Positions 9,470 through 63,537 of a DNA stretch of 64,000 nt are shown one piece after another. This DNA comes from Arabidopsis thaliana (taxonomy: Eukaryota; Streptophyta; Magnoliopsida; Brassicales; Brassicaceae), in assembly GCF_000001735.4 (NCBI RefSeq), contig NC_003070.9:5642001-5706000 (forward strand), written 5' to 3'. The notes under the pieces were generated by a model, which saw only the letters and a program-made list of their open reading frames with translations, did not search any database and was not told the DNA's origin. Each line of letters opens with the position of its first letter. Within the stretch, counting starts at the first letter, position 1. Made by a program: the position numbers and the translations under genes.

Positions 9470-10839
9470 CTAGCAAGACCAAAGGAAGTCTCCGGCATCA
9501 TCCGTATACGCAACAGCCATGTCGATGTCACTGTAGAAGTCTTTGTTCGAGGGGAAAGTAACGGTACTTGCCGTGTACGGCGGGGGTTTGGTATGAATAC
9601 GGTGGAGCGTCCTTATATGAATCAACTCGGCTTGAGCAAAAGCGAGCTGAGTTTGGAGAGTTTCCAGTTGTCTGTGTAACGACGAAATTGTCCCTACACA
9701 TCCATACACAGGATCTTGTATCCTCGCGTTGGCCTCGTACACCATCGAATCCACGGCGTCGCTCCGGTGGTTCTCCGACAGCTCCTACGGTCGTTAAATT
9801 AATATACTTTAGTTTGGATTTTAATAATATTTAGTTCTATTATTTATTTTAAAGACTTGTAAATAGTTGTTTTTGCAAGAAATGTAGATTATGAATGGTT
9901 TTAATCTGCTAAATAACGAAATGATGTTGCACTTCTATAAGTTTTTACGAAAACCATGCAATTATATATACACAGTGGAAACTATTTTATTTTAGGGTTT
10001 AATTCTATTGAGAAAAATATTTGATGGTGTTATTTGGAACTTTTAGTGATGGGTCATACCGTCATATGATGTATTATTACATGGTATTTTATGTAATAAA
10101 TAAGTGCATGCTTACAAGAGATGATGGTTTGTTTGTAATGATTTTGTCAATGATCTTATAGTAATATTCAATAGTAGAAAATAGTAAGAAGTTGCGTTTA
10201 GACATGGATTAATTATTCACCGCGTCATAATTTGTCATAAAATAACAAATAAAAAGAAATAATGTCATGATTCTGCCTTTTAACGTGACATGCAATATAG
10301 ACTTTTGATAGAAAACTCGAAAGTGACTTCATACACTATTCTTTACACGCGGTTTCGATACTTTCCAAAAACAACAAAAAAAATCTTACAAAAAGCAAAT
10401 ATCACATCTGACAAGATCCAAATGCCCTAATTGTCTTAAACGTTAATTTCAAGAAGCAAAAATAAATTGAAGAGTTTAGCAACATGGACGACCACAAGGA
10501 AAAAAAAGAAAAACCAAAATAAAGAAACCATAATGTTTATAAACTTGCAATATACAACAACAAAATAGTGACCAAAAGGAAAATATATATACAACAATTT
10601 TTTTAACAAAGTGGCTAAAATCCCAAATTTAAACAAAGAGAGAAGTGAATTTTCACCTGCAACATCTTATTGACATTACTAGCACCAAAAATCTTGTGGA
10701 CAATGGCAAACTTGTAAGGCTCTTTGGCCGGAAAATACGGAGCAAAGACGCATGAATCTTTCACACATTTTCGCCGGAGAAGTTTACAGCCGGCACAAGG
10801 CGATACTGTTCTTCCGTGTCTGTGACCCTTTTGTCTCAT
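9470..10839 (-). CDS. LBD3: LOB-domain transcription factor LBD3 (ASL9)
   Basis: Two exons on the minus strand, 10839-10657 and 9784-9470, joined in phase 0 after the conserved KMLQ/ELSE junction, giving 165 residues. The LOB domain has the Cys block [16 protein letters not shown] at residues 15-30, the GAS block [10 protein letters not shown] at 51-60, and a leucine-zipper-like coil ([19 protein letters not shown]) near residues 94-112. Oddly, the last two cysteines are four residues apart instead of the canonical three (C-x2-C-x6-C-x4-C). The family consists of nuclear DNA-binding regulators; LBD3/ASL9 is cytokinin-responsive and acts in vascular development (literature). The acidic, aromatic C-terminus ([20 protein letters not shown]) could be a regulatory tail. 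The gene is intact. Confidence 0.92.
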
Positions 10840-40211: not shown

Positions 40212-42749
40212 TCATTGTCCAGAATGTTGATGGTTCCTGATCCTGCTTGAACGTCTCACAGGTGTTATCATCTCTTTCTCTTCGTGACCACTTCTCTTTT
40301 GTATCTTCTCATATGTTGTGAAACTTCCATATGAAACAGAACCTATGGAGTACTCTGATGCAGAGGAAGCCATGGATTCACCGCTATCATTACTCTTCTT
40401 GCCTCCTCCTCCGCTTTGATGTTCTTTAAGATCATCTTTCTTGTTGCTGCAGCTGTGTAATGGTTTGTTCTTACTGAAGCTGAAACTCATCTCAGAAGGG
40501 AATGATGATACCTCTCTTTTTCTGTCATCACCAACTTCTTCTTCTTCTTCCTTGAAATTCAATGAAGAAAGCCTTTCTCTGATCAGATTCTCTACTGGCA
40601 CATGCTCGACAACTTTAGTTGCAGAGATTGCTGTTGGTTCGCCATCTTCATGTTGCAGCATCACAGGTTTTGTCTTCTTCTTGGCTAATAGGAAACCAGC
40701 TGCTACTGCTGCAAGTATAACCATCATAGTCGAAAACAAGACTAACACTTTCTTCTGGCCACTCAACAAAATGTCCTCCGAACCTGCATCATTAACAACT
40801 TCACCAAACCCACTCTCTTCTTCTTCTACTTCATTACCGTCATGTTCAACATCTGTAGCTTCTTCTGAAACACTGAGGCTACCTCCAGCAATTTCCCCAA
40901 CACCTTCTTCTTCTTGTACAGTTTCAACATTGGCTACTCCGGTTTGTTCTTGCTGGTTACTACTGATTGCAGCAGACTGCACATCGTCAAGCAGTTGTGC
41001 GTCGGATTCAGCTTCTTCCATGTTATTCTGGTCATTTTCTTCATATTCTTCCTGCCCTTCAACAACATCAGTTTCTTGGCCACCATGTCCTTCTTCAGAA
41101 AGAGATTCTGAATACCTTTCACCTCCGTTCACCTCTGTATCTGTAGCTATCTTGATCTCAGCCTGCTCATCACATTCATCAACAATTTCTAAGTTTACCT
41201 TTCCTTCTTCATTCTCCTGCTCGACTTCATTATCATCTTCTTCGTAGACAGCTTCAAGACTGATTTCACCACTGTTTTCCGATTCTTCTTCAGGTTCCTG
41301 ATGACCAACATTCACTTCTTCTATATCCACTTCTAAGCTATCCACTATGAACCCATCAACAATGATTTCAACACTAGTTGACTGGAAAACAGCATCAGAC
41401 AACCTTTTGTCTTCCAAAAGAACTGTCAAGTTATGAAATTGAAAAGGAACACTTCCCTCCTCTTCTCGTAGACTTGAGACCAGCTTATCAAGATACACAA
41501 ATGATGATTCTGCCCACATCCTCAGCTTTGCACCCAACTGCTCAAAGTTCTCGCTAGCAGACATTATGATCTCTGGAGAGATGTTAAACTGATAGAAAGG
41601 TGAATCTGTGATGGTTTGTTGAGAAAACGTCGTTGAAGAAACCAACAACAGATACGCCACACCAAGAGCCAAAATCCAACCAAGCAACATGGATGTCTTG
41701 CTGAAACGAGACTGTTTTGAAATCTGATGAGTTTCTTCTTCTTCAATGCTTTCGCCAACTACTACTTCTTCTTCTTCATCATCACTCTCTACAGCTTCCA
41801 AACGCTCTTCACCATCAACATCCAGAATTTCCTCTGCGGCTTCCAAACGCTCTTCACCATCATCTTCTTGTTCTTCTACTGCAACTACACCTTCCTGAGA
41901 AGCAACTTCCTCCTCTTGTTGACCTTCCTCCTCTCGTTCTGCAGACAAATCAGTGTCAGAAGAAGAGCTTTCAGAGATGAAAAGCTCCTCAAGCTGCTTG
42001 CACTCATCAGAACGATGCTCAATTTTTGGATTTGGCTTATAATGGAGAAACTGAGGCCTCGGTGACAAGTAATTCTTCTTTGGATCATAAGGTGCCACCA
42101 CTGGATCCACTTCATGAGACTCAAACACAGGAAATGTGCATGGAACATAAGGAGGAAGAGGACTGATCTTGAAGCTTGAATTATCATTACTCTTCCTCTC
42201 AAGAATCTCATCGAAATCACTGACAGTAATATCATGTGATTCCTCTTCACGAAGCTGCTTAGTTTCATCGATGCAAATCTGGTCTACATCTTTATCTTCC
42301 CCAATGATGCTTATCACATCAGAAAACGAGACAGACGACTTTACCTGAACCTGGTGATGGGATTTGTCAAAGGATCGAGACACTTCGTTTTTATCAGACA
42401 AGATCTTCTTCCTCGGCGATGGATTGATCTTGGAAACGGCTGAAATTGTCGGTGACATGAAATGCTTGGAACCTTTTGTTGGACCTTTGACGACATTAGC
42501 GATTTGATCCTTGTCGTTCTGATTCTCTTTATCACCAATCTCAACACGATTACTGCATTCTCTACCGATTGAGTTTCTCCGGGACGGATCTGCCGAAAAT
42601 GGATTGCCTCGGAAACTGCGACGCATCAGATCTCCGGTTTCCGAGTTTCTTTGCTTAGGGTTTGGTCTGGAAGGCATTGAAGGCGAAGAGGAAGAGAATA
42701 GAGAAGAAGGAGAAACAGAGATCTTGTTCTTTGCTGGAGAAGACGCCAT
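40212..42749 (-). CDS. Acidic protein with two membrane segments (At1g16630-type), unknown function
   Basis: A single uninterrupted frame of 845 residues. The N-terminal ~240 residues are Ser/basic-rich (KNKISVSPSSLFSSSS; RRSFRGNPFSADPSRRNS) with a conserved-looking YLSPRPQFLHYKPNP. An acidic stretch at ~255-345 follows, holding a short internal duplication (DGEERLEA twice). Membrane segment 1 is at ~354-374 (MLLGWILALGVAYLLLVSS). A Glu-rich region precedes segment 2 at ~669-689 (VLVLFSTMMVILAAVAAGFLL), which is followed by KKK. The C-terminus ends with ITPVRRSSRIRNHQHSGQ. The two hydrophobic segments suggest a membrane protein with a lumenal acidic loop. I know no function. A 268-residue antisense frame at 40441-41247 is a shadow of its Glu codons. 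Confidence 0.88.
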   Translation of the reverse strand: MASSPAKNKISVSPSSLFSSSSPSMPSRPNPKQRNSETGDLMRRSFRGNPFSADPSRRNSIGRECSNRVEIGDKENQNDKDQIANVVKGPTKGSKHFMSPTISAVSKINPSPRKKILSDKNEVSRSFDKSHHQVQVKSSVSFSDVISIIGEDKDVDQICIDETKQLREEESHDITVSDFDEILERKSNDNSSFKISPLPPYVPCTFPVFESHEVDPVVAPYDPKKNYLSPRPQFLHYKPNPKIEHRSDECKQLEELFISESSSSDTDLSAEREEEGQQEEEVASQEGVVAVEEQEDDGEERLEAAEEILDVDGEERLEAVESDDEEEEVVVGESIEEEETHQISKQSRFSKTSMLLGWILALGVAYLLLVSSTTFSQQTITDSPFYQFNISPEIIMSASENFEQLGAKLRMWAESSFVYLDKLVSSLREEEGSVPFQFHNLTVLLEDKRLSDAVFQSTSVEIIVDGFIVDSLEVDIEEVNVGHQEPEEESENSGEISLEAVYEEDDNEVEQENEEGKVNLEIVDECDEQAEIKIATDTEVNGGERYSESLSEEGHGGQETDVVEGQEEYEENDQNNMEEAESDAQLLDDVQSAAISSNQQEQTGVANVETVQEEEGVGEIAGGSLSVSEEATDVEHDGNEVEEEESGFGEVVNDAGSEDILLSGQKKVLVLFSTMMVILAAVAAGFLLAKKKTKPVMLQHEDGEPTAISATKVVEHVPVENLIRERLSSLNFKEEEEEVGDDRKREVSSFPSEMSFSFSKNKPLHSCSNKKDDLKEHQSGGGGKKSNDSGESMASSASEYSIGSVSYGSFTTYEKIQKRSGHEEKEMITPVRRSSRIRNHQHSGQ

Positions 42750-44082
42750 GAATGAAAATCACTCCGGAAATCAGAATGGGTTATTTAACAAATCTCAGAT
42801 TTTTTGCGCTCGTTAAAGGAAAGAAAATATGCAAGAATCTGCAAGATTGTGAATGTAAAAAGTTCCTAAGTTTTTGAATTTTTAAAAGAGAGAGAGATAG
42901 AGAGATCGTAACGGCTAGTTGCCAATTTGCGATTTATTTATACATAGTGGATAGAAAAATCCCTAATAATTTTAAGTATTGCAAATTGATTCTGATTTTG
43001 ACCATTTTTCACTGATACCCTAGTTTTCCAAATTTCTGTTATCTCCCCATAAATTTAAGATCTATCTAAATGCCCCATGCTTATTAAAGACTTCACAACG
43101 TAAGATTTGATTCCTCTTTCTTCCTGTAAAGTTGTTAAATTTATAAACGTGGATATTTATGGACAATGTAGAAACAGTGGGAAGAAATTAATGATTCTCA
43201 AAACCTTGGGGTTCAAATTAAAACAAAATTTCAATTTCTGTAGCCGGAAAATAGAGCAGACGATGTAACTGGGCCGCCACGATGATGACACGTCTGATCG
43301 CAGAGAATAAACTAGCCGTTATGGGCTCTCGTAAAGGGTAAGAGACGTTAATCAACCTATTAAAAAGACAGGTAAATCAGAAAAGCAGGCTTTGGGCCCG
43401 TCCACTGATGGAAAAAGTGAAAGCACCAATTATGTTGAAGGTTTTTACTTAACGGGCTTTTGACTGACATTAAAGAAAATTTGGTCATCGGCTAACTAAA
43501 TAGGCCCAGTTTACATTATTTTCTGAGTTCCAATGAAATAAAATCCTTTTCTAAAAGTCATCCTCAAATACCACATCTGTGTGAACCTCATCGACACAAA
43601 TCAGAATATCTTTCATAATTTTATGGATTTATAACTTATTTTGCGATTATCTGCGAAAGTGATTAATTAAGATGAGTGTTCATGTTGCAGAACTAATCGT
43701 TTTCGGAATAACTACCATCAAAATAGTTCTAGACAATTGTTACAATTACGTTTCTAGATTAATTTAGTCCATGAGAATTGAATTCTGAGGGGATTACTTT
43801 TCCTTCTTTCAGGCCAAATTTTTGCTATTGAATATCAACCTGTTGATATGAGTTAAATCTGCATTATGACTTATGAACGCAAACGAAGAAAAAAATACCA
43901 AATCAATTTAACAACAGAAATAACAATCAGAACTTTGGTATGAAATACTTAGAACCAAATCAACCAATGATGAATTTTTCTCAATCGATTTAAGGCAAAT
44001 TGAGACAAAACTAAAAGATCCGACAAAATCCGATTCTGAGAAAACAAAATCAACGATTTCATACTAAAAGAAAAGGATTTAA
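42750..44082. other. Intergenic, promoter of the 845-residue gene
   Basis: Leader and upstream region of the minus-strand gene (GA repeat at about 42888-42904), then AT-rich sequence with GGCC/GGGCC motifs near 43271, 43394 and 43503. A 9-bp perfect inverted repeat (43938-43946 with 44056-44064) encloses ~109 bases next to the snoRNA gene. No protein gene seen. Confidence 0.5.
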
Positions 44083-44192
44083 GGGAGAGCGAGATTCAGA
44101 TGGTAGTGCATGATGGTAAGATCATCAATGATGGTCAGAGTTGGATTGTTCTATGGAATCATCTTTCATCATCATTATCACCGCTCTCTCCT
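44083..44192 (-). ncRNA. C/D-box snoRNA predicted to guide 25S rRNA methylation
   Basis: All parts are in order on the minus strand. Terminal stem: GAGAGCG-type (44183-44189 with 44085-44091). Box C: ATGATGA (44169-44175, with a second overlapping copy). Box D': CTGA (44135-44138). Box C': TGATGA (44122-44127). Box D: CTGA (44096-44099). Directly 5' of box D' is GAACAATCCAAC (44151-44140), an exact 12-nt complement of GTTGGATTGTTC, a conserved stretch of large-subunit rRNA known to me from plant and animal 25S/28S sequences. By the D+5 rule the target would be the fourth base, a G. The ~110-nt length is normal. A suitable promoter lies upstream. I cannot say whether it is already annotated. 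Confidence 0.75.
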
Positions 44193-44363: not shown

Positions 44364-44470
44364 TCTTTAAATAGTGGAGAGAACTCTAGGGTTTTAAGTT
44401 GGATCTTCTAGGTCGATAGGATTTGTCTCAGCTCGTTATTGGGCTATTGGGCTGTATAATTTGGCCCAAT
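44364..44470 (-). promoter_or_regulatory. snoRNA-type promoter: TATA, telo-box and site II motifs
   Basis: Reading on the minus strand: site II-like GCCCAAT/TGGGCC motifs at 44461-44470, 44446-44453 and 44438-44445, then the telo-box AAACCCTA at 44394-44387, then TATTTAAAG at 44373-44364. Telo-box plus site II is the known signature of Arabidopsis snoRNA and ribosomal-protein genes. No protein frame follows downstream, only the snoRNA ~170 bp away. A stem (44289-44302 with 44321-44332) between promoter and snoRNA could be an RNase III-like processing hairpin. Confidence 0.6.
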
Positions 44471-44762: not shown

Positions 44763-45533
44763 ATGGCTGACACTGGTGAGGTTCAATTTATGAAGCCTTT
44801 CATCTCAGAAAAGTCATCTAAATCATTGGTGAGCATGGCTCTCTATCTTTCTTCTTTTTTATTTTCTTATTTCAACAAGTTCAAAATATGTGTTTAGTGT
44901 TCTGATTTGGAGACTTATGGTTTAGGGTAAATTGCTTTAGTTCATTTTCATGGAGCTAATAACTTAGGTCCTTTAATTGCTTTTGTTAGCTTTAAATTAG
45001 CAAAAAGCAAATGAAAGCTTACTGAATCTTGCTAGATTTAGAATGAAGTTTATGTGTTGGTGTTGTTATAGGCTGCTTGAACCAAACATTTCTGCGGGGC
45101 TGAAAAGTGAAAAATAGCAAGTCCATTGTTTCTACGTTGCTGCTCTTGGAATGTCTCCTGAGAGTTGTTTTTTTATATATAAATGTTTGATTAGGAAATC
45201 CCCTTGGGATTCAACGAATACTTCCCAGCACCATTTCCAATAACTGTGGACCTCCTGGACTATAGTGGGAGATCTTGGACGGTTAGGATGAAGAAAAGAG
45301 GAGAGAAAGTGTTTCTTACAGTTGGTTGGGAGAATTTTGTAAAAGATAACAATCTCGAAGATGGCAAGTATTTGCAGTTCATCTATGACCGCGACAGGAC
45401 CTTTTATGTTATCATATATGGTCATAACATGTGTAGCGAATATAGAGACTTCCCTCAAGTCGCAGTAGAGGTTGATGACTATGAAAACGGTGAAGAAGAA
45501 GAAGACGGCGACGATCAAGACAAACATCAGTAA
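44763..45533 (+). CDS. Small single-B3-domain protein (At1g16640-type, REM group)
   Basis: Two exons, 44763-44828 and 45195-45533, phase 0, giving 134 residues. One B3 domain fills residues ~5-102: FMKPFISEKSSKSLEIPLGF, then WTVRMKKRGEKVFLTVGWEN FVKDN, then YLQFIYDRDRTFYVIIYG. An acidic tail (ENGEEEEDGDDQDKHQ) follows. It corresponds to At1g16640, whose B3 fold was solved by NMR (from memory, PDB 1YEL). B3 proteins bind DNA in the nucleus; this small REM-type member has no firmly assigned target. It has no other effector domain. Intact. Confidence 0.92.
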
Positions 45534-60929: not shown

Positions 60930-63537
60930 ATGGAGGATATAGGATTGGTTAAGCAAGGTTGGATATGGTTGCAGTCTCAGAAACATTTGTGTTTGTGGTT
61001 TTGTACTGCAACACAATGTTTTGGGGAAAAGACAGAAGCTTTGGCAGAGCGTCATTGGCCACTAGTGTGCAGTGGATGTGGGAAGCTATTAGGGTTACTT
61101 AGTTTATCGTTTGTTTACTGGAAAGACTGCATTTTGAGGGGTTTCCAGTCCAGTGTTAAATTTGGTTCAGCTGCTTTGCTCCTCATAATGTGGAGTTGCT
61201 TCCTTAGCCTGACTTCAGTATCTTGCTTGGTTTATGTTCTCCTCGGTATGGTAAGGCCTCTTGACCCCTTTTTTAATTTATTTTTATTCTGGGTTCTAGA
61301 TCTCTAAATAGTGTAGATTTTATGAAAATCTCACCACTTATCAGGTGGTATCGAGTTATGCATATTTGAGTTGAGTCTCACCTATACTTGATTTACCATC
61401 GCAGGGAGCTGCCGGTGCTGTTGTCTTGTACTTAGGTCGCACACCTGGGATCTTCATTGTAGGACTATTTGGAATTTTGATATTGTGGATGTACGCTAAT
61501 TTTTGGATCACTGGAACATTATTTATAGTTGGAGGCAAGTGTCCATTTTCTTTTCCAGAACGATTTATGATGTCATAGTTATATCTTATTGCTCTTTTTG
61601 TCTCTTTCCCATTGTAGTTAAAGCTAATGAAGTTTTCATCTAGTGTTAATGTCTATTGTTGTTTGAATCAGGTTATTTGTTCTCTTTGAATCACGCACGG
61701 GTGGTGGTTCTTATGGCGACAATGTATGCAATGTACTGTGTCAAAGTCAGACTTGGATGGCCTGGAGTTATTCTCTCGATGAATCTTGCATTCTTGTCCA
61801 ACGATATATTTATTTGTCTTCTTCAATGGTGTGATACTGTTAGTGAAAAAACACAAGTGGAGGAGCCAACGAAACCTGAAACTGTAATAGACGAAGAGTT
61901 TCCAGGAGAGTTTGAGTATTCTTCTGTTCCTGCTGAAGAAGCAGAGAAAAAGGTTCATGAAGATAAGTCGTCCACTAAGCCAGCATCATCGTCAACTGTT
62001 GTCAGTAACATGAAGGAGATTTCTACTGTTAAGGTAGTCAAAATAGAAACAGATTCAGCGGATGAGATGAAACGAATTCTTGATAGTTTGAATCACTATG
62101 AAGCATTGGGGCTCCCTCTGTTTAAAAAGATTGATGCCGCATTGCTTAAGAAAGACTATAGAAAGAAGGTCTGTTTTCTTGGCTTGGAAACTATGTCTCT
62201 GGTGAATTAAGTTGGTTCTAATTTTATGTGCTGTGTTACCCTTGTTTTAGGCAATGCTGGTTCATCCGGATAAAAATATGGGAAGTCCTTTGGCAAGTGA
62301 ATCATTCAAGAAACTTCAAAGTGCCTACGAGGTAATTGTTAAAGATGGATCCGTGCTTGGTAATTTGCAGTGTGGATTTTACGCTATTTATTTATATTCT
62401 GAATATTAAGACATGGAAGGTTGAATTTACAGGTTCTTTCGGATTCTGTTAAAAGAAGAGATTATGATGAGCTGTTAAAGAAGGAAGAATCTCGGACCAA
62501 GATTGTCTGTCAGTCCTCGCACGCCTCTTCTCATCAGGTTAGTAGATATAATGTGTGAGATTTTGAATGCGTCATGTGTTGTTCTATTGTTTTCTTATAA
62601 AAGGTGATGAACAGATTTTCTAATTTCTTCAGAATAGTGCTGCTTATCGATCAGAAGAGTCAAGGCGCATACACTGTACAAAATGCGGGAATTCACACAT
62701 TTGGGTATGTACCAACAGGAGTAAGGCAAAGGCCAGATGGTGTCAGGTTAGCTAACTTACACTTCTCATTACCAAACATATTGACTTCAAGTTCCTTCGC
62801 AGAACATCTAATTTGTTAAATGGTTATTGCTTCCATTAAAATTATAGGAGTGTGGTCAATATCATCAAGCCAAAGATGGTGACGGATGGGTTGAACACAA
62901 AGGGACTCTGGTATTCGAGAAAGCACATAAGGTTTGGCTTTCAGTTCTTTGGTCCGAATTTTGCTTTTTGGTAATGATGAATAATTATTGTATATATCAT
63001 CTCTTGTAGATTGAAATACCACGAGCTTTTGTTTGCGCTGAGGGAAAAGTCTTTGATGTCTCAGAATGGGCTATTTGTCAGGTTGGTATCTTCTCATTCT
63101 TGACCAGTAGTAACCAATGCTATAACTCTCTGTTCATAATTAGCTAGACTAATATGGCTCAAAAATCGAAAGTTTTTTTCGCACTTAGAGAATATTTAAG
63201 ATAACGTCTAAGACTTTTGTGTTAGTGCATGTGAACATGATGATATATTGATATGTATACTTCAAATCCATTGAAGGGAATGGCGTGTAGACCAAATACA
63301 CATAGGCCAAGTTTCCATGTGAACATGGTCGGTTTAGAAAAGGCAACACAGAGATCAAAGTCGAGCAGGTTCCCGTGGGATCTTGATGTGGAGATGATGG
63401 ACGAGGATGAGGAAGAGTTTGAGTTATGGCTTCAACAAGCTCTAGCTTCCGGTCTATTCTGTGAAACATCAAAACGCAGAAAAAGCTGGAGTCCTTTCAA
63501 GTTAACCAAGAAACAATCCCGAAGAACATCGACTTGA
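60930..63537 (+). CDS. Membrane-anchored DnaJ (J-domain) protein, At1g16680-type
   Basis: Nine in-phase exons: 60930-61250, 61405-61534, 61672-62168, 62251-62331, 62433-62537, 62633-62746, 62848-62931, 63010-63081, 63277-63537, giving 554 residues. The N-terminal ~215 residues hold about five hydrophobic segments (LLGLLSLSFVYW, AALLLIMWSCFLSLTSVSCL, IFIVGLFGILILWMYANFWI, VVVLMATMYAMYC). The J domain runs from YEALGLPLF (~295) to about residue 360, with HPD at 321-323, so it should stimulate Hsp70 ATPase. After it come paired cysteines (CTKCG ... WCQECG) that look like a zinc-binding unit, then DVSEWAICQGMACRPNTHRPSF. Intron 2 uses a GC donor (AG|GCAAGT). It is most likely an ER-type membrane co-chaperone with a cytosolic J domain; location is inference. 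Intact. Confidence 0.9.

Follow-up and report, generated by a model that had tools for sequence, protein, structure and literature searches.

Among the described systems closest to the gene considered here is snoR34, an Arabidopsis small nucleolar RNA (snoRNA) named in PMC8053127 and PMC2780460, as far as their available parts show, for Um1273 of 18S and Gm2918 of 25S ribosomal RNA (rRNA). In PMC8053127, also cited from its available part, 111 methylated residues were mapped, and Table 1 lists U1273 under 'U33, SnoR34' and G2918 under 'SnoR34, SnoR6.3'; the SnoR34 entries are guide assignments, not mutant tests. The accessible portion of the Neurospora paper PMC2780460 places snoR34 in one row with snR55/U33 (an 18S U) and in another with HBII-210 (a 26S G, taken as the same A-loop G). 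Human HBII-210 and the D' guide of Neurospora CD17 share the latter row with snoR34; unlike the gene described below, however, CD17 combines that D' guide with another 18S guide (Am154). The Gm2918 row in the available part of PMC11542601, in a column order that we reconstructed, gives counterparts in tomato, tobacco and human and none in yeast, and an A-loop 'Gm2912', for which PMC8351944 reports a known snoRNA, may be the same residue numbered differently; the available part of PMC8351944 contains no snoR34, 2912 or 2918 as a word start. Here, we analysed a 64,000-nucleotide stretch of Arabidopsis thaliana chromosome 1 (NC_003070.9, positions 5,642,001 to 5,706,000; hereafter the window), which holds a C/D snoRNA gene on the minus strand at 44082..44192 (chr1:5,686,082-5,686,192), delimited by its terminal-stem fold and an Rfam SNORD33 match. 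With a probability of roughly 0.94, the guides and flanking motifs predict that this gene is Arabidopsis snoR34, lying beside the divergent At1g16640, preceded by a telo-box/site II promoter and guiding modification of 25S G2918 and 18S U1273. Matching a guide RNA already catalogued (snoR34), it is ordinary, and no current view is changed.

On the minus strand, box C (ATGATGA, 44169..44175, with an alternative register of ATGATGA at 44166-44172), box D' (CTGA, 44135..44138), box C' (TGATGA, 44122..44127) and box D (CTGA, 44096..44099) follow one another in this order, with C and D near the ends and C'/D' internal, as in the box C/D class. The ends are joined, again as the class demands, by a terminal stem of 14 pairs (44192-44190/44084-44082, 44188-44181/44092-44085 and 44179-44177/44095-44093) interrupted by the single unpaired bases 44189 and 44180. 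A model given only the letters of the window and a list of its open reading frames (the sequence-only reading) had proposed this stem and these boxes, and all were present on the minus strand. Folding of 44078-44192 gave a minimum free energy (MFE) of -27.0 kcal/mol (z -2.18), equalled or bettered by 5 of 200 shuffles. In the MFE structure, four bases of the box C region are in addition paired to the four that precede the end of box D; a kink-turn would not form these pairs, so the inner fold is not to be taken literally.

The possibility that the motifs form a chance array was weighed with an array control that required a span of 59-114 nt and a stem of seven or more pairs, with G-U counted as a pair. 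An array running from RTGATGA to CTGA with a stem occurred three times in the window, against a mean of 0.27 in 200 dinucleotide shuffles; when an exact D' and C' were added, this snoRNA was the single array left in the window, and none was found in any of the 200 shuffles. The two weaker arrays without exact D'/C' (box C starts at 62974, plus strand, and 41173, minus strand) favour chance to some degree, given the 0.27 expected in all, as does the genomic frequency of the D' guide reported below. Against it stand the complete array, the Rfam E-value and the agreement of two guides with two mapped methylation sites in PMC8053127 (both detailed below), so that an accidental assembly of short motifs is extremely improbable.

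The D' guide, GAACAATCCAAC (44140..44151, minus strand), formed 12/12 unbroken Watson-Crick pairs with GTTGGATTGTTC, in the 25S A-loop region, in three contigs carrying eukaryotic large-subunit (LSU) rRNA (L044, L045 and L046), bearing out the 12-nt 25S guide that had been proposed. A single base, T, separates the guide from box D'; it faces T, C and T in the three contigs, and the duplex therefore begins at position 2. Opposite position 5 lies the first of the two G's in the GG of GTTGGATTG, and the guide is thus complementary to the rRNA of these eukaryotic contigs with its fifth base on the methylated residue, as the D+5 rule describes. If, as we assume, U2922 and G2923 are the 'TG' of GGATTG, counting back identifies the target G as G2918 of 25S rRNA. 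In the available part of PMC8053127, U2922 and G2923 belong to the A-loop, U2922 corresponding to E. coli U2552, and G2918 is a methylated residue in the RiboMeth-seq map, in agreement with the target that the sequence-only reading had named within the GG. SnoR6.3, the second named guide for G2918, was not located in our searches.

Pairing was further quantified in a duplex scan of 2017 16-mers, drawn from about 2.1 kb of rRNA in three partial stretches rather than from whole rRNAs. The strongest duplexes were overlapping windows of the D' and D sites, with best values of -19.3 kcal/mol for D' and -22.5 kcal/mol for D, for which the next unrelated place reached -13.1 kcal/mol. In the Arabidopsis assembly itself, the two ribosomal DNA (rDNA) stretches read N at 10000/10000 and 8631/10000 positions, and rRNA queries of the genome returned six partial matches of 85-87% identity (L037-L042) or none. 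The exact 12-mer of the D' guide is by itself not rare, occurring at 31 genome places compared with 18 for the reversed control. Only one of the 31, this gene, has a box C upstream and a CTGA no more than 2 bases downstream (for 30 of them a script examined 60 nt of upstream sequence; the remaining one was inspected by eye over 40 nt upstream). L022 was considered as a second carrier of the guide and rejected: its CTGA overlaps the last base of the 12-mer, but no box C lies upstream. A related guide pattern (TGATGA, gap, AATCCAA, gap, CTGA) returned 13 rows representing 11 distinct places, and 2 for the reversed control; the 10 places besides this gene gave no Rfam match at the gathering score.

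The D guide, TCATGCACTACCAT (44100..44113, minus strand), paired at 14 positions (three as G-U) with GTGGTGGTGCATGG in contigs L049 and L050, of which L049 alone was given to Rfam and shown to be small-subunit (SSU) rRNA. An independent count of the target from the 3' end of L049, with an 18S length that we presume to be 1808, gave 1125, not 1273, and was discarded; the SSU match of L049 spans 912 nt against 1831 in the model, so this contig is no normal full 18S. The fifth base of the D guide faces a U that we take to be 18S U1273, on the strength of the shared guide and the available Table 1 of PMC8053127. A further D-guide match of 10 pairs (one G-U), which lies on the L045 minus strand and not within the rRNA stretches, is taken as chance.

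The Rfam SNORD33 match covers 93 nt at 44182-44090, has 40.8 bits and an E-value of 1.1e-5 for the 1061 bases searched, and includes CAUGCACUACCAUCUGA unbroken. The sequence-only reading had predicted an RNA of about 105-110 nt; the length of this match suggests that the mature form may be closer to 93-100 nt. A genome search with the family (RF00133), which scored the best 59 of 21354 candidates, yielded three convincing loci, namely this gene, L002 and L003; among the candidates scored there was no convincing fourth, places 4 and 5 reaching 22.7 bits (E 8.14). L002 and L003 carry D' guides different from that of this gene; CATGCACTACCAT of the D guide is identical in both, CATGCACTACCATCTGA is common to all three loci, and 13 nt of the D guide together with box D match those of this gene. 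We take L002 and L003 to be U33 genes because of their RF00133 match and the targets in the available Table 1 of PMC8053127, in which U33 has the same 18S site as this gene's D guide.

Guides for 18S U1273 and 25S G2918, in numbering carried over from the available part of PMC8053127, thus occur in one RNA, and since a single locus unites both within the searches run, it should be the snoR34 gene. That the name SnoR34 belongs to this locus is our inference, as are its promoter, expression and processing. A second, uncatalogued paralogue with both snoR34 guides is very unlikely: footnote a of the same Table 1 does mark several gene variants for some Arabidopsis C/D snoRNAs, and the family search scored only its best candidates, but the exact D' guide stands in a C/D setting at only one of its 31 places, no fourth convincing RF00133 locus emerged from the candidates scored, and SnoR34 is without the several-variants mark in the table as available.

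Upstream of the snoRNA, a telo-box, AAACCCTA (44387..44394, minus strand), and three site II elements (TGGGCY; 44440-44445, plus; 44448-44453, plus; 44463-44468, minus) lie 195-276 bases from 44192, confirming what had been read there. The window contains 15 such telo-boxes (mean of 2.2 in 100 shuffles), of which 14 lack a site II within 100 bp and a single one, that of this gene, has it. In the available part of PMC4660826, telo-box and site II, in any order or orientation, occur upstream of the TATA box in plant polycistronic snoRNA and ribosomal protein genes. Motif content suggests that these elements probably serve the snoRNA as an RNA polymerase II promoter, which would drive this RNA, and this RNA alone; Rfam found no second snoRNA in the approximately 175 bases between the TATA-like word and 44192. 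The proposed TATA element, the TATA-like word TATTTAAA (44366..44373, minus strand), is present but weak: on this strand, no TATA word from the list in the available part of PMC4660826 occurs in it.

Several points weigh against assignment to snoR34. Identity with SnoR34 was judged by the guide pair, in which no difference was seen, and not by the published sequence; pairing was measured on partial rRNA of other eukaryotes; and with the best 59 of 21354 candidates scored, a paralogue may have been missed. The promoter part is countered by the position of the elements between the snoRNA and the divergent At1g16640, which they may serve too, by the weakness of the TATA-like word, and by the report, in the available part of PMC8053127, that its data showed no expression for 24 of 26 snoRNA genes whose prediction had relied on promoter features. 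Moreover, the snoRNA scores 3.2 bits under the Rfam gathering score, owing to which a whole-window scan at gathering returned 0 matches; this objection is tempered by the U33-like L003, which also falls under that score (42.1 bits). A decayed, unexpressed snoRNA copy would accord with the slightly low score and with an expression that is itself deduced, but the four boxes, two guides and stem are all intact, the promoter elements are in place and the plant carries methylation at both target sites (PMC8053127, available part), which renders decay extremely unlikely.

As snoR34, the C/D snoRNA gene very probably guides rRNA ribose methylation at two places. The mature snoRNA would form a particle with fibrillarin and the other core C/D proteins. 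Its D' guide would pair with the 25S A-loop region, leading to 2'-O-methylation of G2918, and its D guide would pair with 18S and, as U33 does, direct methylation of U1273. Within the large subunit, Gm2918 belongs to the A-loop helix region and neighbours Um2922 and Gm2923, to which no Arabidopsis guide is assigned in the available parts of PMC8053127 and PMC11542601. Because the 12-bp D' duplex spans U2922 and G2923 besides G2918, it is conceivable, though improbable, that snoR34 binding shields the A-loop or presents it to an Spb1-like enzyme and thereby decides in which order the three A-loop methylations are made. The locus clearly illustrates the finding of a real non-coding gene from raw sequence, in which the sequence-only reading passed over the second guide, that for 18S U1273 at D, and the published snoR34.

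On one flank, the plus-strand frame 45195-45533 has a B3 domain and aligns with residues 25-104 in the solved At1g16640 structure (E 1.1e-53); the frame starting MADTGEVQF at 44763 is presumably the first exon of that gene. On the other flank, an open frame of 848 codons, measured from stop to stop, occupies 40212-42758 of the minus strand; Pfam gave no match to it at E 0.001. Arabidopsis Genome Initiative (AGI) numbers increase along the chromosome, and a gene between the two would accordingly be numbered, for example, At1g16635. This number appears in the available part of PMC4714525 under 'sn(o)RNA or other ncRNA' (non-coding RNA), and we infer that At1g16635 is this snoRNA gene.

One of the two weaker C...D arrays falls within the 848-codon frame; the array at 62974 gave 0 Rfam matches at E up to 1. 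Contigs L045 and L046 are titled as Mucilaginibacter and Ignavibacteria genome bins yet hold eukaryotic LSU rRNA, likely a binning contamination. The six partial Arabidopsis matches to the 25S A-loop region (contig 1, 15.27-15.38 Mb; 52-54 bp each) form three pairs, each 98,097 bases apart, and mark a single block containing rDNA-like fragments that is present twice.
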